From positions 1 through 64,000 of the IMG/VR virus record IMGVR_UViG_3300025853_000040: a DNA stretch of 64,000 bases. One strand, given 5' to 3'. This stretch comes from a virus. How positions within the stretch are numbered: the stretch's first letter is position 1; every line of letters begins with the position of its first letter. The notes beneath the pieces were generated by a model, which was not told the DNA's origin, searched no databases, and saw nothing but the letters and a program-made list of their open reading frames with translations. Shown here one piece after another: positions 6,905 to 63,743 of this stretch. The translations under genes and the position numbers were made by a program.

Positions 6905-7897
6905 TTATATTTCAATATATTCTGTTTTTAATGTAGCGAAAGAAGAAACCCAGTTATCAATATTATTAGGTGAAATTCCTTCGGATAGTAATTTAATTCT
7001 AAAATTAGGTGGATTAAACTTTAATTGTGTTTTACCAACAATATTAAAGATTGTGCTTACAGAAGTTGTTGATATATTAGGATCTAACAACTGAACTAAA
7101 CTATAATTATTTTCTATTAAGTTCTTATTATCAATATATTTCTGATATCTTTTTTGTTTGTTTGATACTTGTTCAATGGAATATTCTTGTATATCGTCTA
7201 TTGTATATTCTGTTGTGTTTGATAGAAATGGAAAATCTTTCTTTACTGTTTTCTCACCAACGCCCTTAACACCTTCAATATTATCTGAATTATCACCACA
7301 TAATGATTTTATCAATGTGTAATTAGGTGGATAACACTCTTCTATATCACTCATCCACTCAGTGTTAATAAACTGGCCTATGGGGTCTTTCTTGGTTTTA
7401 ATGGGTCTGAATACTGTAGTTGTGTCATCAACCAATTGAAAATAATCCTTATCACTAGAAACTATTATCTTTTCGTAATCATCTTTTAACACTTTTTTGC
7501 AAAGGTATGCAATAACATCATCGGCCTCTAAATACTTTACACCTAATTGCAAAACAGGTAAATCATTAAGACACTCCTTAAGTAATAGTAACTGACGCGC
7601 GAATGATTGTGTTTCATCTTCATCAGAAGAATCAAAATGACGGCGATTCAAACCCTTAAAAGATCTACCCTCTTTATATGAGGATAATGTCTTTCTTCTT
7701 CTCTCTGATGAACCCTGACCTTCCCACGCAATGATAGTATAATCGGGTTGGTGTAACTCTATTTGACTCCTAATAGAAGCCAGACTTCCATATAACCCAG
7801 AAACTAATTCACCATTATCGTTTGACATAGCAAATGCAGAAAAGTTTCTGACATACATATTCAACATATCAACTATTAAAACTTTATTTTTTCTCAT
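6905..7897 (-). CDS. 5'-3' exonuclease / flap endonuclease (T4 RNase H-like)
   Basis: Removes RNA primers and 5' flaps on the lagging strand. The product (330 residues) contains the FEN/PIN acidic centres: LIVDMLNMYVRN at the N-terminus, YLEADDVIAYL, VSSDKDYFQL, and SLCGDNSDNIEGVKGVGEKT, the last being the helix-hairpin-helix DNA-binding region. The start is set at the ATG at 7897 because it overlaps the TGA of the upstream deaminase as ATGA; a GTG six codons earlier is less likely. It lies directly before the helicase gene. Related to T4 RNase H and the N-terminal domain of Pol I. Confidence 0.9.
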   Translation of the reverse strand: MRKNKVLIVDMLNMYVRNFSAFAMSNDNGELVSGLYGSLASIRSQIELHQPDYTIIAWEGQGSSERRRKTLSSYKEGRSFKGLNRRHFDSSDEDETQSFARQLLLLKECLNDLPVLQLGVKYLEADDVIAYLCKKVLKDDYEKIIVSSDKDYFQLVDDTTTVFRPIKTKKDPIGQFINTEWMSDIEECYPPNYTLIKSLCGDNSDNIEGVKGVGEKTVKKDFPFLSNTTEYTIDDIQEYSIEQVSNKQKRYQKYIDNKNLIENNYSLVQLLDPNISTTSVSTIFNIVGKTQLKFNPPNFRIKLLSEGISPNNIDNWVSSFATLKTEYIEI

Positions 7898-8319
7898 ATT
7901 ATGTGACACTCCCACCCGGTTGGGGTTGTAAAATAAACTTTTTTAACACCAGCTTCTCTAATAATGTTCATACAATAAGAACAAGGCTTAGCTGGCTTTA
8001 ACATACCATGTCTATCTTCTCTATAAACATACATCTTACTACCTTTTATACAATCATCATATCTATATGAATTTACTGAAAGTATTGCTTGAAGTTCGGC
8101 GTGTATTGATACAGCGTAGAACGGATAATGTTTTTTGAGTGCAGGGTGGGTTTTCATATCCTTATTGTGAGACTTATAAACCTTGCCGTTCTTTAACACT
8201 AACACCGCGCCAAACCTCGTTTTATGGTCTGACTTGAACATTTCTGAACAAGCCATTCTGAAAAACTTCTTCTTCTTTATCTCTTTTTTTACGAGTGAGT
8301 TACTCGGCTCATACTCCAT
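7894..8319 (-). CDS. second cytidine/deoxycytidylate deaminase-family protein
   Basis: A 141-residue member of the CMP/dCMP deaminase fold with its zinc ligands intact: HAELQAIL (His and catalytic Glu) and PCSYC. The N-terminal DHKTRFGAVLVLKNGKVYKSHNKD segment corresponds to the family's TxxGAVIV region. It is clearly diverged from the enzyme at 1481-1918: the substrate loop differs and the C-terminus (TTPTGWECHII) is distinct. It may act on another cytosine-containing substrate. It has its own candidate promoter at 8343-8370 and overlaps the exonuclease gene by 4 bases. Confidence 0.78.
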   Translation of the reverse strand: MEYEPSNSLVKKEIKKKKFFRMACSEMFKSDHKTRFGAVLVLKNGKVYKSHNKDMKTHPALKKHYPFYAVSIHAELQAILSVNSYRYDDCIKGSKMYVYREDRHGMLKPAKPCSYCMNIIREAGVKKVYFTTPTGWECHII

Positions 8320-12224: not shown

Positions 12225-12932
12225 TTATAAACTCCTTATTTGTTTTATTAAATTGCCCTCAAATATATTATTAGACATAAGTCTTTTTTTCTTTACATAA
12301 ATATCATGTTCATGCATTATACTGTTTGAATGTGTCCACCTATATCTTGGATGATTATCTCTTTTTAAGATATACCAACTATTATATAAGTTGTTTTCAT
12401 ACATCATACATAAAAACCATTCTTCTAATATATCAAAACTCTCCATATTTGTCAAGTGTAAATTTTCTATTCTTTCAGGCAATATTTCTTGGCGTATATA
12501 TTTTGGTATATGTGATGTTTTAAAAACGCATATATCCGTTAGTGGATGGCCATATTCTATGTTACGACCTAGACCTATATGTTTGTCTTTTTGTATACCC
12601 TCAAATATGCCTAAAAAATTATTTTGATCTAAAATCCAAACATCAAAATTCATTATTAAAGTATATTTTCTATTTACTAGTTTAGCAACTTCAAAAGATT
12701 TATTGTATAAATCTAAAGCCCCTAATTGATAACCTCTGTTTTCATTTAATGTTATAAAGTTATTTTCTCTTGCTCCACTACATAATTCATTTAAATCACC
12801 ATTATATATGCAACTAATCCATATATCATTACCAAACTCATAGTTATCTCTTATAATCTCCATATTAGCATAAAAATTATAAACTTCGTTATTACCTATA
12901 AGTATAACATGTATATCTTTTGGGTTAATCAT
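12225..12932 (-). CDS. probable glycosyltransferase, GT-A-like
   Basis: A 235-residue product with a GT-A-type layout: an N-terminal strand HVILIGNNE, then ITLNENRGYQLGALDLYN, like the NxGxxxGxN region of GT2-type enzymes, then LIMNFDVWIL in the position of the DxD nucleotide-sugar motif (here DVW). The C-terminal half lacks familiar motifs. It overlaps the next glycosyltransferase gene by 4 bases and belongs to a run of five sugar genes. The donor and acceptor cannot be predicted. The missing canonical DxD keeps this tentative. Confidence 0.55.
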   Translation of the reverse strand: MINPKDIHVILIGNNEVYNFYANMEIIRDNYEFGNDIWISCIYNGDLNELCSGARENNFITLNENRGYQLGALDLYNKSFEVAKLVNRKYTLIMNFDVWILDQNNFLGIFEGIQKDKHIGLGRNIEYGHPLTDICVFKTSHIPKYIRQEILPERIENLHLTNMESFDILEEWFLCMMYENNLYNSWYILKRDNHPRYRWTHSNSIMHEHDIYVKKKRLMSNNIFEGNLIKQIRSL

Positions 12933-13978
12933 AATGAATTATATATCTCAATATACTTTCTATATATCATTTCTGGATTATAATCTTCTTCATATCTTTG
13001 TCTTGCATTTTTTGATAACTTTTCATAATCATATTTTTTATCTACAAAATTTTTCATTATACGAGCATACTCTTTAATATCATTATGTAACACAGTAAAA
13101 CCTGCGTTTTGTATATTTTCTATTTGACCATTAAAACGATCACCGTAATGACTTATTACAGGTTTACTGTGTGAAAACGATTCGGCTATGTTTGTAGGAC
13201 AACACTCGCCGTCTTTCCTCGCATGAGCAAGAACATCAATAGTGTTATAAAACTTAGATATATAAATATAATCAATATTTTGTGGAATGTCAACAAAATT
13301 CTTTATATTAAATTGCTTAATATCCTGCAGCATTTTTTGAGAAGAATTAACAGAAATAAAGCAAGTTTTATCTGTTTCTATCATAGAATAGGCTTTTATA
13401 TTAATAGGATCATATATATTATCATCAGACCTTCCTATTCTACCAAAAACATATATATCATCTTCTATACCTAATTCTTTTCTTAAGTTTTTATTTTGAG
13501 GTTTATCAATAACAGGAACTCTTACAGTGTAGTGATTTTTTTCTTTTTGTTTACCCATAAAAAATTGAACATGCAAAGAAACATATATAACCGCTGATAT
13601 ATCTATTGTTTCGTCTTGATCACCAAACGTAGATAATGATACAAAATGATTTGTATGTTCTTTTACTTGTTCTACAAAAGGAAACTCTGGTATTCCTGCG
13701 GAATATCTTTGTATGATGTGAGGTTTTAAATGTTTAACTATTTCTAAAAAATCATGTTCAGTGTTATAGGGAAGCATCCTTTCTTCACCTATAACACTTA
13801 TAAAATCACTTTCTCTAGATATATCTATCCATTTTTTATAAGAAACATAATGTTTATATTTTTTATCTTTTAAAAAATAAGGTAATAAAGTTTGTATTAT
13901 TTTTGTTGTTCCACCAACAGACAACTCATTGATATGGTGTATAACTACATTATTATTTCTTATTTTTGTTGTAAACAT
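12929..13978 (-). CDS. glycosyltransferase, GT-B fold, GT1/GT4-like
   Basis: A 349-residue GT-B glycosyltransferase. The N-terminal domain has a glycine-containing loop after the first strand (HHINELSVGGTTKIIQTLLPYF), and the C-terminal Rossmann domain ends with the family's donor-binding region: NIAESFSHSKPVISH, then an LHNDIKEYARIM helix. The IDVLAHARKDGE segment matches the GT4 position preceding the E(x7)E motif. It probably transfers a sugar from a nucleotide donor. It overlaps the neighbouring genes by 1 and 4 bases. Confidence 0.72.
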   Translation of the reverse strand: MFTTKIRNNNVVIHHINELSVGGTTKIIQTLLPYFLKDKKYKHYVSYKKWIDISRESDFISVIGEERMLPYNTEHDFLEIVKHLKPHIIQRYSAGIPEFPFVEQVKEHTNHFVSLSTFGDQDETIDISAVIYVSLHVQFFMGKQKEKNHYTVRVPVIDKPQNKNLRKELGIEDDIYVFGRIGRSDDNIYDPINIKAYSMIETDKTCFISVNSSQKMLQDIKQFNIKNFVDIPQNIDYIYISKFYNTIDVLAHARKDGECCPTNIAESFSHSKPVISHYGDRFNGQIENIQNAGFTVLHNDIKEYARIMKNFVDKKYDYEKLSKNARQRYEEDYNPEMIYRKYIEIYNSL

Positions 13979-15558
13979 TAATGTTTATACTCACCATATT
14001 CAATAAGTTGATTAACTTGTGTGTCATATGTTTTATAATGCAAACAATGAACACCATCAACTACTTTTTCTTTATTAGCGTTATTTATTTTTATATGTAT
14101 CTTGTTACTATATCTACAATTGTTCTTATAAACTCTTTGTTGAACATCTGGATAATTAATCCAATTAAATGGTTTTGATAAAACCCAATTTTGTCTTTTT
14201 GCAAAATCTTCTAGCTTATCTTCATCAACACCAGTTATAACATTAATTCTTGGAAATATAATAGAGTCAAAATTATTTTTATCAGCATCTCTTATATACC
14301 AACCTAACTGATTCCAGAATATATCTTCATAAGTTTCATCAGTATCAATCCAAACAACCCAATCATTATTTGTTTTTTCTAAGGCTATATTTTTCTGAAC
14401 ACTGTGATTATTTGGCCATGGGTTTTCTATTATATGTGCGTTTCCTTCTTTTATATTCAATGATTGAATAAATGTTTTTGTTATATCAATTGTTTTATCT
14501 GTAGATCCACCATCAACGAAAACAAACTCATTATTTTCATTTGAAGATATATATGATCCTATATTATTAAAAGTTTTCTGAATGTGATTTTCATTATTCA
14601 TACCTATCATACACACAGAAAAATTATAATTAGGAGATTTTTTATTTTCTATTATATATTTTATTTTATCAAAAACACCAGATGCATTTACAGCTTCTTT
14701 ATATACTTTTTGATCATAGTATTCTACTTCTTCATAATCAGAATTTGTTTCAATATAACAAGTGTTCCAAAAATCTGATAGCCCTTTTGGTATATGATTC
14801 TGAATAAAGAAATGATTCTTCGTATAAAAACAAAATGTTGGTATACCAGCTCTTGATGTTATTTCCCAATCCCAACTATTACAGAATATACCTGCATCAA
14901 CTGTTTGTAGAAAATATATTGTATCTTCTACACCCATTCTCTTATCTAAGACGCTGTATCCGTCTGTTATTAGCTCTTCTATTAACCCCCAATCCTCATC
15001 TCCATAACCAACGAAGGCAGGTGTATATCCATTATCACACAACTTTATACACAAATTCTTCCACTCATCTCTACTCCAAAACCTACCTTTCTCAACATCA
15101 CTTTCAAACCCCTCTATGTTGCCAGATTTTGTTAGGGGGTGAATAGCTACTGTATTTTTTGGTGTAAAATTTATTTCTGTATTATATGGATGTTTTGTTG
15201 TTTTATAATGATAAGGAAATTGCAAATCATATTTATAAAAAACAGGTTCTTTATTACTAAAAATCTCAGAACAAAAACTCCAATCTTCTAATATGTCGTT
15301 TTCTTCAAAAACATTTTCTTTTATAAAATCATATGTAGATCTGATTTGATTATGAAATGAAAAGTTCTTAACAACAGAAGCTTTATAACCTTCTCTTTCT
15401 ATTTGTTGTTTTGAAAACTCAACTGATTGGCCGATGCCACCTAACCAAAATTGTATTTCATGTTCTGGGTATTTTTCTTTTACTGCGGGAATTCTTGTTA
15501 ATGCTGAAAGTGTGTCTCCAAAACCAGCTAATTGCAATATATGAAACTTTTTACTCAT
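13978..15558 (-). CDS. two-domain glycosyltransferase: GT9-like plus GT2
   Basis: A 526-residue fusion. Residues 1 to about 300 resemble a GT9 heptosyltransferase-like GT-B fold: FHILQLAGFGDTLSALTRIPAVKEKYP at the N-terminus, VAIHPLTKSGN at the start of the second domain, and DAGIFCNSWDWEITSRAGIP where GT9 enzymes have the GxDxGxxH region. Residues about 305-526 are a GT2 domain: SVCMIGMNNENHI, FVFVDGGSTDKT, and WVVWIDTDE carrying the DxD metal site. It overlaps the HldE-like nucleotidyltransferase gene by 8 bases. A bifunctional transferase acting on a heptose-containing acceptor is inferred. Confidence 0.75.
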   Translation of the reverse strand: MSKKFHILQLAGFGDTLSALTRIPAVKEKYPEHEIQFWLGGIGQSVEFSKQQIEREGYKASVVKNFSFHNQIRSTYDFIKENVFEENDILEDWSFCSEIFSNKEPVFYKYDLQFPYHYKTTKHPYNTEINFTPKNTVAIHPLTKSGNIEGFESDVEKGRFWSRDEWKNLCIKLCDNGYTPAFVGYGDEDWGLIEELITDGYSVLDKRMGVEDTIYFLQTVDAGIFCNSWDWEITSRAGIPTFCFYTKNHFFIQNHIPKGLSDFWNTCYIETNSDYEEVEYYDQKVYKEAVNASGVFDKIKYIIENKKSPNYNFSVCMIGMNNENHIQKTFNNIGSYISSNENNEFVFVDGGSTDKTIDITKTFIQSLNIKEGNAHIIENPWPNNHSVQKNIALEKTNNDWVVWIDTDETYEDIFWNQLGWYIRDADKNNFDSIIFPRINVITGVDEDKLEDFAKRQNWVLSKPFNWINYPDVQQRVYKNNCRYSNKIHIKINNANKEKVVDGVHCLHYKTYDTQVNQLIEYGEYKH

Positions 15559-15997
15559 CTTTAACCATCTTTTTCAATAAATTAGTTGTAGAATATTCTC
15601 CAAACATAGGAGCCTTAATAACTTTACCTCCGTATGATTCAACAAATGATTTACCTACTATAAAATCTGTTGAACCACCTTTTATGAGAATACTAGGTCT
15701 TAACCATTTAATAGTTTCTAAAACACTAGTATTCTCAATCGGTATAATATAATCAATTTCTTTAGAAAAATAAACTAAATTTTCTACTCTTTTATTAAAA
15801 GTATCAACAGGTCTATTATTTCCTTTTAACTTCTTAACTGATTTATCTGTGTTAACACCAACAACTAATTTATTACTTGGTAATTTAAAAGATAATGCAT
15901 AGTTTATTAAAAATTCATGCCCTTTATGAAATAAATCAAAACAACCATTAGTAAAAATAACTTCTTCAATAAAATATTTAGGTTTATATATGAGCAT
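15551..15997 (-). CDS. HldE C-terminal-like nucleotidyltransferase (heptose-phosphate adenylyltransferase type)
   Basis: A 148-residue cytidylyltransferase-fold enzyme. FTNGCFDLFHKGHEFLINYA carries the HxGH active-site motif near residues 16-35. VGVNTDKSVKKLKGNNRPV matches the second conserved block, and DYIIPIENTSVLETIKWLRPSILIKGG the HldE/RfaE2-type third block. In bacteria this domain adds AMP to heptose-1-phosphate to make ADP-heptose. Length fits the stand-alone domain (about 150). Its expected partner, a PfkB-type HldE1 kinase, is at 59216-60004. The neighbours are GT9-like transferases, which use ADP-heptose. GmhA, GmhB and HldD are not visible here. Confidence 0.8.
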   Translation of the reverse strand: MLIYKPKYFIEEVIFTNGCFDLFHKGHEFLINYALSFKLPSNKLVVGVNTDKSVKKLKGNNRPVDTFNKRVENLVYFSKEIDYIIPIENTSVLETIKWLRPSILIKGGSTDFIVGKSFVESYGGKVIKAPMFGEYSTTNLLKKMVKDE

Positions 15998-15998
15998 A

Positions 15999-16565
15999 TT
16001 ATATTTTTATATCTTCTAAATCTCCAATTTGATAACGCAAACCACCATATTTATCATCACCTATAAAAACACCATCATCTATAATAACCATCTTATTTAT
16101 TCCTACAGGTTCTGGAATAAATGTATCATATTGATCGGTTCTCATATTATAAGATATGCCAGATTTTTTAATCATCAATATATAAGAGCCACTTTGAAAA
16201 AGTATATTACCCTCTATAGAATAAACATTTCTACTAGAACTCTTTGGCTCACTTTTGAACCAAATATCTAATGAGTTTGTTTTAATCATTCTATCCATTT
16301 TAAACTGAAGATGGTAGAATGGGTCGTCACTTTTTTCAAAATGATAAATTTCCATATATTGTATTTCACCATCTGTAACATTAAAACTTCTTTCTAAATA
16401 TGCATATTTTTCATCTAATGCATCAACCATCATTAATGCGTAATTATCATAGCTATATACATACTCCCTACTATCACTAGATGTAGGGTTGTCTGAACAA
16501 CTGACTAAAATCGCAACACTTGAAAAGAATATAACCTTTGATAATAAGTTTTTTATTCTTTTCAT
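15999..16565 (-). CDS. predicted lipoprotein, 188 residues
   Basis: A signal peptide (MKRIKNLLSKVIFFSSVAIL) is followed by a lipobox ending at Cys23 (LVSC), then a Ser/Asp/Asn-rich linker (SDNPTSSDS), the standard form of a bacterial lipoprotein. The mature part is a beta-rich domain without recognised family. It would be lipid-anchored to the host inner or outer membrane. Phage-encoded lipoproteins often block superinfection or receptors, so that is the leading guess. Its position among sugar genes would fit a cell-surface-directed module. Confidence 0.72.
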   Translation of the reverse strand: MKRIKNLLSKVIFFSSVAILVSCSDNPTSSDSREYVYSYDNYALMMVDALDEKYAYLERSFNVTDGEIQYMEIYHFEKSDDPFYHLQFKMDRMIKTNSLDIWFKSEPKSSSRNVYSIEGNILFQSGSYILMIKKSGISYNMRTDQYDTFIPEPVGINKMVIIDDGVFIGDDKYGGLRYQIGDLEDIKI

Positions 16566-16795: not shown

Positions 16796-17233
16796 TTATT
16801 TAAAGATAGATTCGTGTGAACTTCTGGCTGCTTTTTCAATATATTGATCTATTCTATCAATACAATCATTTCTTAACTTATTATACTCAGAAACCTTATC
16901 AGCGGCCTCTAATCTTTCATTATCAGTTAAACTCTTATCTCTTCTAATATCCTCTAAATCCCATAACTTATTATTATACTCATTTAGAAGACTAATAACT
17001 GATAAAAAACTTACTTCATTTTGTATTGATACTTCTTTATCATAAACCTTATGTTTTTCAAATGTAAATGGCCGACGACCACTAAAACACTCAGTAAGTT
17101 GATCACCAATACTTTTGAATAACCACCCATACTGATTGTATAGGTGGTAATATCCTTCATCTTTTTTTCTTAACTCTTGAATTCTTCTTTCTAAAATTGT
17201 TATTTTATCTATTATACTACCAAAAGTCTCCAT
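16796..17233 (-). CDS. DUF4254/DUF6165-like helical protein
   Basis: A 145-residue all-helical product. The segments IIDKITILERRI near the N-terminus, NNKLWDLEDIRRD in the middle, and EYNKLRNDCIDRID near the C-terminus resemble the uncharacterised families (DUF4254/DUF6165 type) that are found next to GT9 heptosyltransferases in LPS gene clusters. Here too a GT9-containing gene follows immediately (no gap, 17234-19654). Function is unknown. A helper or regulatory role in glycan assembly is suggested by context only. Confidence 0.55.
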   Translation of the reverse strand: METFGSIIDKITILERRIQELRKKDEGYYHLYNQYGWLFKSIGDQLTECFSGRRPFTFEKHKVYDKEVSIQNEVSFLSVISLLNEYNNKLWDLEDIRRDKSLTDNERLEAADKVSEYNKLRNDCIDRIDQYIEKAARSSHESIFK

Positions 17234-19654
17234 TTAATTTTTCCTTTGACAAAACAAAAACTTAGCATCAGTAGCTTCATGCGTAAAATATTGCTCAACT
17301 ATTTTAAACCCATTATCATCTAACATAGATTCAAATGTTTTATAATCAAAAAATGATATTTTTTCACCAACACCCATATCTCTCCAATCTCTTGGGTTAT
17401 CTCTAAATGAGTCATTATCTATATCATAAAAACTTATATATAGATAACCACCAGATTCAGAAACATCGTAACACTTAGATAAAAATTCTCTTGGGTTGCT
17501 AACATTATTAATAATATCATGACACAATAATGTTTGAAACTTTCTATCAAAATCATAAGTAACAAAATTACCAGATATTAATTTATCTTTTAAATCAGAA
17601 TATATATTAATACCATTTGTAATAGAGTCTATGTTTAAATCAATACCCATAATATCATCCGTATACTTAGAATATCCATCTAAAAATATTCCCATATTAC
17701 ACCCAATATCTAATAAAGAATTATTAGTTATTGATTTCTCTGTCATATGATTAATTATTGGAACAAAGTTCTTTTCCCACACTGTTTCTTTTTTATCTAT
17801 ATAAAACTGAGATGTATTAAGTCTTTGATCTGGGTGATGATGCACATCTTCTTTCCAATATATACCAGTAACATCATCTCTATAATATGCAAAACCCTCA
17901 ATCAAATCTTTGCTGATGAGATTTCCTATGATATTAAAAGCATAAGTCATCTCATTTCCATCTGGTGATGTCTTTTTATCTGTTAAAGATGATACTGCTT
18001 TTTTAACCATACTTGGTTTAATATCATTAATACCACAACTTGGATCTTTAACATTAATAGGTATAAATGTTAAACCACCTTTTTCTGTTAAATCTATAAA
18101 CTTAGAGTGCTTTAATCCTAAACAATCATTACCATGATTTTCAAGATAATAAACATTTTCATTATTGGGATTAGTTAATCTTGGCAAAGCAGCTCCTGCA
18201 ATAATCACACACTTCTTATTGAAAGATCTTGCAATATGCATGGGACCATTGTCTGCTCCGATATACAAATCACAATTTTTAATCAAATTAATTAAAGTTT
18301 TAAAATCACAATTGTGATATGTTGGATCTGTATCATTTGTGACATGATGGCTTCCAGTTTCTATAACATTATATCCTTCATTTTTATAATGAAGAATAAT
18401 GTTCTCATAATAACTTAATGGCCAAGTTTTTCCGGGCCAACCAGATCCATCACCACAAACAACAATATATTTTTCTTCTATAATACGATCTTCATCACAC
18501 ACTAATTGTGGATACTTATCTCTTCTATCTTCAAAGAATACATTTGCAACTTCAGCATAAGAGTCAATAAAAGGTCTCTTAACTCTGCTCTCATATGATA
18601 AATCCAAATCAATACCCATTTCATATTCTGTTTTAGATAAAAAGTCTTCGTGAAGATTGACTTCCTCCAACTCCTTTATATGATCTGGTGCGTGCTTGAA
18701 GTAATTTGGTATATCTGTTGATTTGGTAAAAAGTGTTATTTCAGCTTTAGGATGATCCTGTCTCAACTTCTTAATGATTGGCTCAATTAATATAACATCA
18801 CCCAACCCTATTGTTCTCTTAATAGCTATTGAGTTTATATCACCCATATTCTTTGACATAGCAACAGTGTGCTTATTATGATTTGCAAATCTATAGTTAC
18901 CAACTAAAGTTGGAAGTTTTCTTTTTATCTCTATCTCACCAGTCTCTTCATTGATAGAATGTTTGTTATCTATAGGGGCAGGTGCGCCAATCTGTGCCTC
19001 AATATAATTTATAGTTTCCTTATAACCACCATCTCTTTCAATCCACTGAATAACACTTATTTCTGTGGATACAGTTCCTCTTAATTTTTCATAAGACCAC
19101 TGATTAACTATTTTACCCGCAGAAAAATCATGTTCGCCATTTGAATCTTCAGTGATACATAACGCCCAATCTGCTGGTATGCCTTTGCGGTGAGAAACTT
19201 CATCAATTATAATTGTTGTTAAGTTAGGTGGGTTTTCTATCCTATAGTCAAAAGTATTAGCTTTACCCTCTGGCTTATTAATGTCTTTGCTTTCTAAATT
19301 TGAAAGACACCAATTAACATTTGAATCATCGTATTTTTCAATATGACTATCAATATGTCTTGGATACCACTTAACATTATTAATAGTTCTATAAAAAATA
19401 ATATCACCTACAGCTAATTCCAAAGCTTCATTTATAAATGTTGGAATAGGTTTATGATTAATCCATTGCACATTTAAAAACAAACTATTGACTATTTTTT
19501 TAACTTCTTCTGAATTTTCTTCCTTAAATGATGAAACAATCAAATCAACATTCTTATATGTTTGTTCAGATATATTTTTTACTGCCTCTACTATTTGATC
19601 GTCATCAGAATTTTCTACAAACAATAAAACACTAACCATTTTGTTTTCTGACAT
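17234..19654 (-). CDS. three-domain sugar enzyme: GT2-like, GT9-like, SAM methyltransferase
   Basis: An 806-residue fusion. The N-terminus (about residues 5-110) has the GT2 opening MVSVLLFVEN and ISEQTYKNVDLIVSS, but no DxD where expected (FYRTINNVKW), so it may be inactive. Residues about 280-550 are a GT9 heptosyltransferase-like domain: RTIGLGDVILIEPIIKKLRQ, then VVCGDGSGWPGKTWP, and the signature IGADNGPMHIARS. Residues about 640-806 are a class I methyltransferase with SLLDIGCNMGIFLDG (SAM loop) and GIDLN. It starts six bases after GAGGT. A combined glycosyl- and methyl-transfer is likely. Confidence 0.8.
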   Translation of the reverse strand: MSENKMVSVLLFVENSDDDQIVEAVKNISEQTYKNVDLIVSSFKEENSEEVKKIVNSLFLNVQWINHKPIPTFINEALELAVGDIIFYRTINNVKWYPRHIDSHIEKYDDSNVNWCLSNLESKDINKPEGKANTFDYRIENPPNLTTIIIDEVSHRKGIPADWALCITEDSNGEHDFSAGKIVNQWSYEKLRGTVSTEISVIQWIERDGGYKETINYIEAQIGAPAPIDNKHSINEETGEIEIKRKLPTLVGNYRFANHNKHTVAMSKNMGDINSIAIKRTIGLGDVILIEPIIKKLRQDHPKAEITLFTKSTDIPNYFKHAPDHIKELEEVNLHEDFLSKTEYEMGIDLDLSYESRVKRPFIDSYAEVANVFFEDRRDKYPQLVCDEDRIIEEKYIVVCGDGSGWPGKTWPLSYYENIILHYKNEGYNVIETGSHHVTNDTDPTYHNCDFKTLINLIKNCDLYIGADNGPMHIARSFNKKCVIIAGAALPRLTNPNNENVYYLENHGNDCLGLKHSKFIDLTEKGGLTFIPINVKDPSCGINDIKPSMVKKAVSSLTDKKTSPDGNEMTYAFNIIGNLISKDLIEGFAYYRDDVTGIYWKEDVHHHPDQRLNTSQFYIDKKETVWEKNFVPIINHMTEKSITNNSLLDIGCNMGIFLDGYSKYTDDIMGIDLNIDSITNGINIYSDLKDKLISGNFVTYDFDRKFQTLLCHDIINNVSNPREFLSKCYDVSESGGYLYISFYDIDNDSFRDNPRDWRDMGVGEKISFFDYKTFESMLDDNGFKIVEQYFTHEATDAKFLFCQRKN

Positions 19655-59215: not shown

Positions 59216-60004
59216 CTAATTTAAACTTAATGTTCCAAGTTTCTTACAATTCTCAGCAGCATAATTATCTGCTTCTTTTAATGAATCATATATGTTTTTT
59301 TCACATACAATATTATATATAAATGATGCAAAGAAAGAGTCACCCGCACCAATACTATCTATAAAATCATATTTTGTATGACCACCGCCGTTTTGTAAAA
59401 TATGGCTATATCCATAATATTTGTATCCTTCAATACCTAATGTAACAATTACATTAGGAAAATATTTGCTAATATCATCTCTATAATCTTTTTCATATTC
59501 TAAAAATGTTTTATTATTTATTTTTAGATAATCAGCGCCATAATATTCACTATTTACTATATTTGTATCTATAAAAGAAGTTATGTTTTTATTTTTAGCT
59601 TCTTTTATTAGTAAGTTTATTTCATAATCTGTTATTAATCCTTTATGATAGTTTGATATTACAAGGAAATCACCTTCATTTAAATCATTTATTAAATTTT
59701 GAACCATTCCTTTGTTATGTTTTACACTATCTCCATGATCAAACCTATATATGGGGTTATGGTCTATATAAAATCTCTCTTTAATTATTTTATCTTCATT
59801 TGTATAAAAAGCTATTTCATGGTATTTGTTTTCTTTAAAGAGAAAATTTAGATGTTTAATCAAATTAGCGGCACCGCCATCAGTGTCAACTTTTTCTTTA
59901 TTAGATAAAATAACTGGAACTTTTGTTGCAGGATCTATTCTATTAGAATGCATAAAAACATATCTATCTATAAATGACTCACCTATTACGTGTAATTTCT
60001 TCAT
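59216..60004 (-). CDS. PfkB-family sugar kinase, HldE N-terminal (RfaE1)-like
   Basis: 262 residues. The N-terminus HVIGESFIDRYVFMHSNRIDPATKVPVI followed by VDTDGGAANLIKHLNF is close to the HldE heptose-7-phosphate kinase opening (DRY...R(I)xPxxxVPV...GGAAN). The catalytic loop DSIGAGDSFFASF carries the Asp general base of the PfkB family. In bacteria the kinase makes heptose-1,7-bisphosphate on the way to ADP-heptose. It is the counterpart of the nucleotidyltransferase at 15551-15997. It is shorter than typical HldE1 (about 320), so a different sugar is possible. It overlaps the DHS-like gene by 26 bases. Confidence 0.78.
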   Translation of the reverse strand: MKKLHVIGESFIDRYVFMHSNRIDPATKVPVILSNKEKVDTDGGAANLIKHLNFLFKENKYHEIAFYTNEDKIIKERFYIDHNPIYRFDHGDSVKHNKGMVQNLINDLNEGDFLVISNYHKGLITDYEINLLIKEAKNKNITSFIDTNIVNSEYYGADYLKINNKTFLEYEKDYRDDISKYFPNVIVTLGIEGYKYYGYSHILQNGGGHTKYDFIDSIGAGDSFFASFIYNIVCEKNIYDSLKEADNYAAENCKKLGTLSLN

Positions 60005-60773
60005 ACATCCTCTGATATATATTTCTGTTATCTATTCTAAGATATTCAATATTTTCTGATATTCTACCAAAAGTTTTTAATTGACGTTCATAATAACCAG
60101 CCTTAGATGTGTCTTTGTTAACATACTCTGATCCATCAACTGATTCTAAATCAAACAAATCACAAACTAAACTATCAAAAACACATTCACTATCACGTTT
60201 TTTTGCAACAGAAAACGCCTTTTCAATAACCATAGGAACAAAGACTTTACTTCCAACACAAACAAACAAACCTCTTTTTGTATTTTCTACTAACTTACAA
60301 AGTCTTAAAAAATCATTATAAGAAGCTTTTGCCCACTGTGCGGGATCAAAGTTTCCATACATTTGAAATATATCATGACCTATACCAATAGATACAATAG
60401 GTTGCACTTGATTCTGATGGGCTTGCCAAAATACTGATTTATCTCTATGATTACCTTGCCAACCAATGAAGTTAGAAATCAACTTACCTAATGAATCAGT
60501 TCTTGTAAGGCTGATAAAGTTGTTTATATCACCACATACTCTTCTATTCCAACCAAACTTACCCTCTTTGATTGTAGTTTCAACATCCTCACTGGTATCG
60601 TCATACAAAGCAATCTCTGTATCATGTAAGATAGAAGCTCCATTAGTTACAAATGCATCTATCTTACCAGTTTCAAATAATGGTTTTAGCTGTTCAACAC
60701 ATCTATTCTTTATTGTGTGTGCGCCGAAACCAAGTATTATTGTATCATATTGATCAATATTGTTTAGTAACAT
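59979..60773 (-). CDS. deoxyhypusine-synthase-like protein
   Basis: 264 residues. ILGFGAHTIKNRCVEQLKPLFETGKIDAFVTNGASILHDTEIAL followed by DDTSEDVETTIKEGKFG is the DHS-family N-terminal core, and SIGIGHDIFQMYGNFDPAQW, then GLFVCVGSKVFVPMVIEKAF, its C-terminal NAD-binding half. True DHS needs a Lys in a GGGxPKH-like motif, which I do not see. Bacterial relatives of unknown function exist. The start is the ATG at 60773 with GGAAGG six bases upstream; a TTG start at 60800 is unlikely. It overlaps the carbamoyltransferase by 20 bases and the kinase by 26. Confidence 0.68.
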   Translation of the reverse strand: MLLNNIDQYDTIILGFGAHTIKNRCVEQLKPLFETGKIDAFVTNGASILHDTEIALYDDTSEDVETTIKEGKFGWNRRVCGDINNFISLTRTDSLGKLISNFIGWQGNHRDKSVFWQAHQNQVQPIVSIGIGHDIFQMYGNFDPAQWAKASYNDFLRLCKLVENTKRGLFVCVGSKVFVPMVIEKAFSVAKKRDSECVFDSLVCDLFDLESVDGSEYVNKDTSKAGYYERQLKTFGRISENIEYLRIDNRNIYQRMYEEITRNR

Positions 60774-62580
60774 AAAAACCTTCCATAACAAGAGTGTCAA
60801 TTTCTGTTTTTATAAAGCATTTCATTGCATCTTCTGGAGTTTCTACAATGGGTTCTCCCTTATCATTAAATGATGTATTTATGATTACAGGAACACCAGT
60901 TAATTCATCAAACTTTTTTATGATATCATATATTCTTCCATTATCCTCTGAAATCGTCTGTAATCGTCCAGAATCGTCTATATGAACACCAGAGGGAATA
61001 TCACTACCCCTAATTGATTTGTGACTAAATAACATGAATGGTGACTCATATCCTTCTTCTACATCAAACCACTCATGAGCTTTCTCTTTTAATACCATAG
61101 GAGCAAAAGGTCTAAACTCTTCTCTGTGTTTTACATTCTTATTTAGTTTATCTTTCATATCTTTGTTGCGTGCATCTGCTAGTATACTTCTATTACCTAA
61201 GGCTCTTGGGCCTATTTCAGATCCGCCTTCAAAATAAGCTACAATCTTTCCTTCAGATATATCTTTTGTTATTTTATTAATAATATCATCATTTGATAAT
61301 TTTTCATAATTTAATTTAGGTTTATTTATATTTAAATATTCCTTTATTGTTGATTGTATTTCTTGATCGTCATAAATCTTACCGCCAGTAAAAGTATCAG
61401 ATATTGTATACCCTACTTTTTTCTTATTTGTCATTTCTATACTCATCTCACCTTTTTTATTTTTGCGAATTTGTTCCGCAATAAAAATGGATGCACCTAT
61501 TGATAATCCATCATCTCCCGGTGCTGGTGGTATGAAGAAATTATAATCTGGAAAAGCTTTTTGTAATTTCCCATTAGCAACACAATTCAAAACAGTTCCA
61601 CCAGATAAACATATATTTTTTGTATTTTTTACATTAGACAAAATTTCTTTTATCATATTAATCATTGAAGCTTCTAATATATGTTGTGTGTCTGCCGCAA
61701 TGTTTTTATTTATTTTTATTTTCCAATCTTTTTTATCTAACCAAGATATATCTTCAACCCCACCTTCTCCTTTAAGTTGTGGGTAAAAAACTCTTCGTTC
61801 TGGTATATTCGGCATACCATGTCTATACAATAATGAATTATATTGATCTCCATGAAATAATTGACCTATTCTTTTTACAGTTGGCCACTCTAATCCATTA
61901 ACTATATTTTCATTTACTTTACCGTATGCTGACAAAGCCATTACTTTGCCAGCATCAGTAAGAGATGGGAAAAAACCTAAGTAATCACACATAGAACCAT
62001 AAAAGCTACCTATATCAAAATCACCCCCTCTACGGATTGGACGATAAAACTTTAAATCGTCATTAAAATAATATACTGAGTGTGATGTTCCCATATTATC
62101 TGCAAAATCAACAGATAAACAAATTGCATCTCTAAAAGGAGACAAGTAATACGATGTTGCACAATGTGAAAAATGATGATCAACAAAGAAAACAGGAATG
62201 TTTTGTTCACCTATTTGCATTTCATAAACACCTTGTGCAACCATATTAGTGTTTTGATGAAAGTTAAACCAATCTTCTTGTGTGTATTCAACTCCATTAG
62301 CATCAACAATAGAAAAATCTTCTTTTGTTTTATCCCAAAGTTCTGTTCCTTCTAAATCTTTATCCCAAAACCAATTCGTTATAACTGCACAATCAACATC
62401 TTTTAATTTAATTCCTTCTTTATCCAAAATGTATTTAATTGTTTTTTTATTTATCCCTCGTTCCTTCTTGTTTCTAGTTAATCTTTCAGTTGCAATATAA
62501 CCAACCATCTTTCTATTTTTAACAAGAGAAACACTGCCATCATGGCCACAATTTAAACCTAATACATAAGAATTTTTCAT
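60754..62580 (-). CDS. carbamoyltransferase, NodU/TobZ family
   Basis: 608 residues, the normal family length. Uses carbamoyl phosphate and ATP to place a carbamoyl group on a sugar hydroxyl. The Kae1-like N-terminal domain shows GLNCGHDGSVSLV, VDHHFSHCATSYY (HHxxH metal site), SVDFADN, CLSGGTVLNCVAN and PPAPGDDGLSIGA. The YrdC-like C-terminal domain shows YFEGGSEIGPRALGNRSILADAR and HREEFRPFAPMVL. It lies in an overlapping cassette with a GT9-like enzyme and an HldE-like kinase. The acceptor is probably the sugar these enzymes make. Confidence 0.9.
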   Translation of the reverse strand: MKNSYVLGLNCGHDGSVSLVKNRKMVGYIATERLTRNKKERGINKKTIKYILDKEGIKLKDVDCAVITNWFWDKDLEGTELWDKTKEDFSIVDANGVEYTQEDWFNFHQNTNMVAQGVYEMQIGEQNIPVFFVDHHFSHCATSYYLSPFRDAICLSVDFADNMGTSHSVYYFNDDLKFYRPIRRGGDFDIGSFYGSMCDYLGFFPSLTDAGKVMALSAYGKVNENIVNGLEWPTVKRIGQLFHGDQYNSLLYRHGMPNIPERRVFYPQLKGEGGVEDISWLDKKDWKIKINKNIAADTQHILEASMINMIKEILSNVKNTKNICLSGGTVLNCVANGKLQKAFPDYNFFIPPAPGDDGLSIGASIFIAEQIRKNKKGEMSIEMTNKKKVGYTISDTFTGGKIYDDQEIQSTIKEYLNINKPKLNYEKLSNDDIINKITKDISEGKIVAYFEGGSEIGPRALGNRSILADARNKDMKDKLNKNVKHREEFRPFAPMVLKEKAHEWFDVEEGYESPFMLFSHKSIRGSDIPSGVHIDDSGRLQTISEDNGRIYDIIKKFDELTGVPVIINTSFNDKGEPIVETPEDAMKCFIKTEIDTLVMEGFYVTKQY

Positions 62581-63743
62581 TATAACATCACCGTATTTTC
62601 TTTTTTATCTTTTTTAATTATATCCTCTAAATTATTCATCTCTTTAATAACTTGCTGAACTGTTATTGATTTCATACAGCTGTAAGAAGGGCAAACCCAT
62701 AGTTTTCCATTTCTATCTTGATCAAACATATTTGGTCTCCAACAACCTAAATCATCTTGATCACATGAGTTTTTATTCCATATATTAATATTATGTTTCC
62801 AACCCCAAACATAAGGTGAAACACTACCCCATAAAACAACACCTCTTCTTTTTATAGAGGGAAATAATGCAGCTGCTAAATGTGGTAGATAGTTATCAAT
62901 ACTTAAAAACATTCTACACTTTTGAGATTGTAATATTTGTAATACTGGATTTAAATTATCTACTTTTAATGATGTTATACCGGGTATCTCTGGATTATAT
63001 TCGTTTGCAAAAACTTGAACAAAAGAATATCTATCTTTTAATTTTGCAGCTAACTCACCCCATTGCTGAAGTGACCATACTTTATGTGTTCTGTAGTTTA
63101 TACCAGACATTAATTCATGTGGGTTTCTATCAACTCCTAAATGAACTAATACTATAGGTTTTTTATTTTGATTAATAAAACTATTAACTTTATTATTACT
63201 TCCACTAATCTTAAGCATAGGGTGGCCACCATCATATTCCAGTGGACTAGCCATAGATTTAGAGTATAGATTACATATAAATGATTTAGGATCATCCTTA
63301 TATCTGTGCTGAGTGATTAGTTTGGTTAAACTAAAGCCATATTCTATAGAATAAACTCTATCTATATTGTTTTTTATAAGTTTAGGTATTATATTTTCAT
63401 CACGATTAAAAAATTGATTTTGTGCACGCCAACTATCTAAATATATACCATGTTCAAAACCATTTTCTATAGGTATAACACCCGGATCATGTGGCCATTG
63501 ATTGGGAGATTCTGGAACTTGAACTCCATATACGTTCTGCCCAGACATTGCAGAAGAAACCATATGACCTATTATACTATTATCTATTACTAGTATAGGA
63601 TATGTATTTCTTTCTTGTTTTCTTATTCTTATAAGAGATCTTATAAAGCATGTTTGTATTATTCTAGCTCCCATACCTCCAGCTAGTATTAATATATATA
63701 CTTTATCTTTTTCAGTTATTTGTATTTGTTTATTCTGGTTCAT
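62580..63743 (-). CDS. GT9-like glycosyltransferase (heptosyltransferase type)
   Basis: 387 residues. The N-terminus VYILILAGGMGARIIQTCFIRSLIR is a GT9-like first strand and loop. The C-terminal GT-B domain reads IVLVHLGVDRNPH, WSLQQWGELAAKLKDRYSF, KCRMFLSIDNYLPHLAAALF (where GT9 has GxDxGxxH/PxHL) and RRGVVLWGSVSPYVWGW. A C-terminal Cys-rich segment (SCDQDDLGCWRPNMFDQ, VCPSYSCM) may bind metal. It overlaps the carbamoyltransferase start by one base (TAATG). The 63744-63844 gap upstream is AT-rich, with no clear promoter. Confidence 0.72.
   Translation of the reverse strand: MNQNKQIQITEKDKVYILILAGGMGARIIQTCFIRSLIRIRKQERNTYPILVIDNSIIGHMVSSAMSGQNVYGVQVPESPNQWPHDPGVIPIENGFEHGIYLDSWRAQNQFFNRDENIIPKLIKNNIDRVYSIEYGFSLTKLITQHRYKDDPKSFICNLYSKSMASPLEYDGGHPMLKISGSNNKVNSFINQNKKPIVLVHLGVDRNPHELMSGINYRTHKVWSLQQWGELAAKLKDRYSFVQVFANEYNPEIPGITSLKVDNLNPVLQILQSQKCRMFLSIDNYLPHLAAALFPSIKRRGVVLWGSVSPYVWGWKHNINIWNKNSCDQDDLGCWRPNMFDQDRNGKLWVCPSYSCMKSITVQQVIKEMNNLEDIIKKDKKENTVML

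Follow-up and report, generated by a model that had tools for sequence, protein, structure and literature searches.

Do the two halves of an HldE-type heptose enzyme, encoded as separate genes 43 kb apart in one phage genome, serve a single sugar-activation pathway? The question is raised by the virus record IMGVR_UViG_3300025853_000040 from IMG/VR, a sequence of 109,190 bases whose bases 1-64000 form the stretch discussed here (hereafter, the window). An earlier note on this DNA, made from the sequence alone, proposed an HldE2-like adenylyltransferase at positions 15551-15997 and an HldE1-like kinase at positions 59216-60004. Both are present there, and they are indeed split, each lying in its own glycan cassette. 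The reading that we favor, with modest confidence, is that the phage encodes both activation steps of nucleoside diphosphate (NDP)-beta-D-manno-heptose as separate proteins that feed its own glycosyltransferases. The source is a marine-type T4-like myovirus, as judged from its sheath, baseplate, gp32- and RecA-like genes. The 109-kb record yielded no terminase and is therefore probably incomplete.

The kinase reading frame is intact from its ATG through the stop, with no interruption. When the protein was used as a single-sequence query, neither viral relatives nor a PDB match was found; the former were recovered with an alignment, the latter with a profile of 64 phage homologues. The 262-aa product matches TIGR02198, domain I of HldE (E-value 1.6e-22, 80 bits), as well as PfkB (4.9e-11) and phrog_8133 (1.5e-29). 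Compared with the PDB, the profile was closest to HldA of Burkholderia cenocepacia (1.1e-38); the sugar kinase ranked second had an E-value of 2.9e-13. The AlphaFold model (predicted local distance difference test, pLDDT, 92.9) gave HldA structures as Foldseek matches 1-7 (2.5e-20 to 2.1e-18), compared with 1.8e-14 for phosphofructokinase. Within the motif D216xxGAGD222, residues D216, G219, G221 and D222 are invariant among the 64 homologues, and A220 is nearly so. HldA is thus the closest family by both profile and fold, and on its sequence the protein is a short phage form of the HldA subfamily that is predicted to phosphorylate C1 of heptose 7-phosphate.

The nucleotidyltransferase frame is also intact, ATG through stop and without interruption. 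Residues 11-145 of its 148-aa product match TIGR02199, domain II of HldE, with an E-value of 1.8e-33 and 115 bits, as against 19 bits for the glycerol-3-phosphate cytidylyltransferase model; Pfam CTP_transf_like gave 1.9e-11. The top relative of solved structure is 5x9q (1.2e-18), deposited as a 'putative cytidylyltransferase'. The alignment places the HxGH nucleotide-binding motif at H24-K-G-H27, and the C-terminal STT motif is present as YSTTN. The heptose nucleotidyltransferases that Tang et al. describe as promiscuous carry the motif (F/L)XXGRSTT (PMC11573728). In the window protein a Y precedes STT, so that STTR5, the R at this position linked to nucleoside triphosphate promiscuity, is not matched. 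STTR5 is a subtype feature and not a condition for membership in HldC or HldE domain II, and an R directly before STT is rare among the collected phage sequences. Contigs of three other metagenomes encode a nucleotidyltransferase 100% identical to that of the window. The family matches of both proteins far exceed chance, and the placement in unrelated kinase or CTP-transferase families, which the earlier note had named as a refutation, was found for neither.

The pairing recurs in other phages. Of the 50,697 records in a phage collection, 32 encode the kinase; almost all of these are from cyanophages or marine viruses, and each of the 32 also carries the nucleotidyltransferase. The pair is typically grouped in a single cassette together with genes for a carbamoyltransferase of the Nol type, a cupin, an epimerase and an HAD-like protein. 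The expectation that relatives keep the two genes together therefore holds for these records, and it does not hold for fragmentary contigs with one half only. Among viral contigs of IMG/VR, at least 551 contain the kinase and at least 542 the nucleotidyltransferase. The halves are very often separate genes, mostly adjacent, and short fused HldE proteins are common (for example, one of 384 aa with the kinase at residues 1-247 and the nucleotidyltransferase at 252-383). The nucleotidyltransferase is present in 25 of the 34 kinase contigs of at least 30 kb, within about 5 kb in 22 and farther away in three (about 17 kb in L076, 30 kb in L086 and 50 kb in L052). L193 contains a further distant pair, its genes separated by about 76 kb. 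The 43-kb spacing in the window is unusual, not unique. Short phage-type kinases, mostly in phage-style cassettes, are also seen in contigs binned into bacterial or archaeal metagenome-assembled genomes (L099, L100, L101, L103, L105, L123, L127, L133 and L159), which are probably misbinned phage contigs or proviral.

In the trees, the window kinase clusters with L019-L024 (support 100/99) and the nucleotidyltransferase of the window with L189 (100/93); both fall outside their cyanophage clades, in the case of the nucleotidyltransferase with support 100. Placement of the latter as sister of its cyanophage clade was not rejected by the approximately unbiased test (p 0.58), and for this reason we dismissed the claim that the trees demonstrate different phylogenetic sources. 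A joint history of the pair is thus neither proven nor excluded by the trees. Since they are not decisive, the case for a separate origin of the two genes comes entirely from the gene neighborhood.

The kinase cassette adjoins tail-fiber genes and has the order GT9-like protein, carbamoyltransferase, GSU2086-like protein, kinase, and the nucleotidyltransferase cassette lies near replication genes in the order GT9-methyltransferase, DUF4254, nucleotidyltransferase, GT2, GT4 (Table 1). All window genes share one strand. The full kinase cassette was found again in L019/L288 and in L281, with 66% identity between the L019 and window kinases. Six relatives (L286, L287 and L290-L293) keep the GT9-like, carbamoyltransferase and kinase genes without GSU2086, and four (L283, L284, L285 and L289) lack the kinase. 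Three GT9 domains had been noted in the window. Among these candidates only the 806-aa protein exceeds the gathering score of PF01075 (48 bits); the GT9-like protein of the kinase cassette stays below it (15 bits versus a cut-off of 22) and aligned with cyanophage GC302 at an hhalign probability of only 14%. In the N-terminus of the 526-aa protein no GT9 was detected by Pfam, and profile comparison was not decisive.

Table 1. Predicted features of the two glycan cassettes in the window
Feature	Coordinates	Strand	Evidence
Conserved cassette protein, 235 aa	12225-12932	-	No Pfam match; conserved neighbor in L296, L297, L298
GT4-type (Glycos_transf_1) glycosyltransferase	12929-13978	-	PF00534 9.2e-09
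526-aa protein, C-terminal GT2 domain	13978-15558	-	Glycos_transf_2 4.1e-15; overlaps nucleotidyltransferase gene end
HldC/HldE2-type heptose-1-phosphate nucleotidyltransferase (predicted), 148 aa	15551-15997	-	TIGR02199, alignment, tree
DUF4254 protein	16796-17233	-	PF14063 2e-11
GT9 domain with C-terminal methyltransferase, 806 aa, cassette head	17234-19654	-	Glyco_transf_9 1.3e-12; Methyltransf_23 1.6e-13
HldA/HldE1-type (PfkB) heptose-phosphate kinase (predicted), short phage form, 262 aa	59216-60004	-	TIGR02198, phrog_8133, HldA best in PDB
GSU2086-family protein, deoxyhypusine-synthase-like fold	59979-60773	-	NF052581 5.5e-45; overlaps kinase start
Nol/NodU-type carbamoyltransferase, 608 aa	60754-62580	-	Carbam_trans_C 7.3e-63; phrog_1601 3.3e-120
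GT9-like protein, head of kinase cassette	62580-63743	-	Pfam GT9 E=0.013, sub-threshold; kept in 15 related loci

The relatives of the nucleotidyltransferase cassette proved the more informative for the question of substrate. In L297 and L296 it occupies the same slot as in the window, before the gp32- and RecA-like genes, and it is also found in L298; the surroundings of the 526-aa GT2 protein are conserved in L297 and L298. The L297 nucleotidyltransferase is 51% identical to the window protein, and its cassette additionally encodes an epimerase-type short-chain dehydrogenase/reductase (SDR), a SIS-domain protein (weak, 1.6e-4) and, beside the latter within the glycosyltransferase cassette, a transaldolase (6.8e-35; L297:13629-14294). 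The L298 cassette adds an EcbF/BcbF-type phosphatase (1.1e-13), SDRs and, among its glycosyltransferase genes, an HddA-type GHMP heptokinase (3.2e-50) with a GmhA-type isomerase (7e-16; L298:15025-16598). In L296 the SDR and SIS genes are retained and the nucleotidyltransferase is gone. The heptose genes in these cassettes are what most strongly ties the window nucleotidyltransferase to heptose metabolism; the same neighbors indicate that the kinase paired with it can belong to a different family. A lipoprotein-like open reading frame (ORF; signal ending ...VSCSDNPTSS) lies between the DUF4254 and nucleotidyltransferase genes of the window, at 15999-16565; in L297 no such ORF intervenes and the two genes overlap each other.

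We propose the following scenario. The host, through its GmhA, would supply heptose 7-phosphate, which the HldA-type kinase would phosphorylate at C1; a host GmhB-like phosphatase would take off the 7-phosphate, and the HldC-type nucleotidyltransferase would then yield ADP-heptose or a close NDP-sugar. This sugar may be used by the GT9, GT2 and GT4 proteins of the phage, perhaps also by its carbamoyltransferase, on a surface glycan of the host or on a virion glycan. The two genes reside in two independently mobile glycan cassettes and plausibly serve one pathway in this phage. The earlier suggestion of a nucleotide-activated heptose or a related sugar gains support from the HldA fold, the fused phage homologues and the heptose genes in relatives of the nucleotidyltransferase cassette.

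Several observations weigh against this scenario, beginning with its chemistry. Models of GmhA, GmhB and HldD had no match in the 109-kb, probably incomplete record, and profiles of the cyanophage HAD, cupin and epimerase proteins had none in it either. The kinase misses the equivalog cut-off of TIGR02198 (345 bits), as does its homologue in cyanophage P-SSM2 with 148 bits, and the nucleotidyltransferase misses that of TIGR02199 (181.5 bits); because both proteins are under these NCBIfam cut-offs, we only infer their heptose specificity. The phage kinase domains are also shorter (median 248 aa versus 300 aa in cellular loci) and, when aligned with HldA, show gaps behind the GGAAN helix and ahead of the C-terminal strand, so their substrate could differ. 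These scores and the shortened kinase family, along with carbamoyltransferase, cupin and SDR partners that suggest a decorated sugar in phage cassettes, would fit a pair that activates a sugar phosphate other than D-glycero-D-manno-heptose, whether another heptose, a hexose or a pentose derivative. We regard this as unlikely, since HldA is well ahead of other sugar kinases in both profile and fold, transaldolase, GmhA-like and HddA genes accompany related nucleotidyltransferases, and viral heptose enzymes are reported as active (PMC11461863).

The remaining objections concern the pairing itself. No relative record, all of them fragments, holds both halves of the window lineage. The nucleotidyltransferase was found in none of 15 kinase-cassette relatives (fragments of up to 51 kb), some of which also lack the kinase, and an HldA-type kinase in none of the three fragment records L296, L297 and L298, the last of which brings its own HddA-type GHMP kinase in place of it. 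Together with the position of both window proteins outside their cyanophage clades, this is consistent with two unrelated cassettes whose enzymes are not consecutive in one pathway: the kinase would cooperate with a nucleotidyltransferase of the host, the phage-encoded nucleotidyltransferase would rely on a kinase of the host or on a heptokinase of the GHMP type, and their joint presence would be incidental. Such an arrangement is a serious but still doubtful possibility, because the genes go together in every kinase-bearing record of the phage collection, fused forms are common, distant pairs recur in large phage contigs, and the relatives with a single half come as fragments no longer than 69 kb, to be set against a spacing of 43 kb here. 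That the genes are non-functional cargo, the 'stuffer DNA' idea of Sullivan et al. 2010, who left the functionality of cyanophage lipopolysaccharide (LPS) genes open (PMC3037559), seems highly improbable: both ORFs are intact with their catalytic motifs kept, the nucleotidyltransferase recurs unchanged in the three other metagenomes, and L019 has kept the kinase cassette.

The GSU2086-like gene ahead of the kinase has an alternative TTG start at 60800, and its model (pLDDT 72.6) matches deoxyhypusine synthase in Foldseek at 1e-7. Members of this family overlap or abut gmhA in two Desulfobacterota genomes, one has a fused HldE as a near neighbor in phage contig L256, and the gene is linked to the HldA-type kinase in the window, L019 and L281. 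The protein, with its deoxyhypusine-synthase-type NAD-binding fold, might be an unrecognized enzyme of heptose metabolism, a tentative idea to which we give little credence at present. Outside the window, family members were located at L278:7005-8084, L279:7191-8156 and L256:6944-8032.

The closest known system is the LPS cassette of cyanophages P-SSM2, S-CAM1, S-SSM7 and Sf-FS3, which consists of T4-GC 303 (carbamoyltransferase), 304 (nucleotidyltransferase), 305 (kinase) and 306-308. It shares with the window the same short kinase family, a nucleotidyltransferase, a Nol-type carbamoyltransferase and a location near tail-fiber genes. In the cyanophages the nucleotidyltransferase adjoins the kinase, whereas in the window it is 43 kb off, in another cassette; the window has in addition the GSU2086-like gene, and the HAD, cupin and epimerase genes of the cyanophages were not found. 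Sullivan et al. 2010 (PMC3037559) observed T4-GC 304 together with 305 in P-SSM2, S-SM2 and S-SSM7 and proposed that the two are functionally linked. As in the bacterial split HldA and HldC of the Burkholderia type, both families occur as separate proteins and the fold is nearest to B. cenocepacia HldA, but the phage kinase is shorter and the GmhA, GmhB and HldD partners are missing from the record. Both domains are homologous to those of fused HldE (RfaE), although the window pair is unfused. As reported in PMC11461863 and PMC11573728, Tang et al. 2024 (Science 385:678) describe functional viral NDP-heptose enzymes, again a kinase with a heptose nucleotidyltransferase; unlike their promiscuous type, the window protein has Y, not R, before STT, and its activity is predicted. 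Pelagimyophages are reported to carry rfaE-type genes (PMC7029224). In view of these reports and of the many phage pairs and fusions, the phage heptose-enzyme pair was already known, and what is unusual here is its placement in two cassettes, which varies a familiar arrangement only modestly. Among the by-products of this analysis, the most interesting are the link of GSU2086 to heptose genes and the cassettes of relatives that are richer in such genes.

Some further observations were made along the way. P-SSM2 T4-GC 306 and its homologues (L008:14722-15066) are annotated as 'phosphoheptose isomerase', an annotation that looks wrong because they have no SIS domain match and the P-SSM2 sequence resembles that of a small HAD-like protein, with DIDGT and FIDDKG motifs; a related L298 protein matches EcbF/BcbF capsule phosphatases. 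Several tail-fiber-like ORFs at record positions 63845-84323 (L002, L003) have a near-identical N-terminus (MAKYKNLIDIGNLNIDNNTLTIDCVNN...), which suggests duplicated or swappable fiber genes. The window also contains two deoxycytidylate-deaminase-like ORFs (HAE...PCxxC) at 1481-1918 and 7894-8319. Promoter scans of the window gave results no better than chance, and the late-promoter motif TATAAATA was not enriched (10 observed versus 19 expected); with all genes on one strand, these scans give no support to the two expression programs that the earlier note suggested for the pair.

That phages encode NDP-heptose enzymes is known, but what the enzymes serve is not, and viruses are among the cases named as open in PMC11573728. 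The phage group described here mixes a transaldolase, an isomerase, two types of kinase, a phosphatase, a nucleotidyltransferase and epimerases between two glycan cassettes. These mixed pathway pieces suggest that the phages tune different steps of the heptose supply of their hosts, and the cassettes provide small, defined sets of enzymes for assay.
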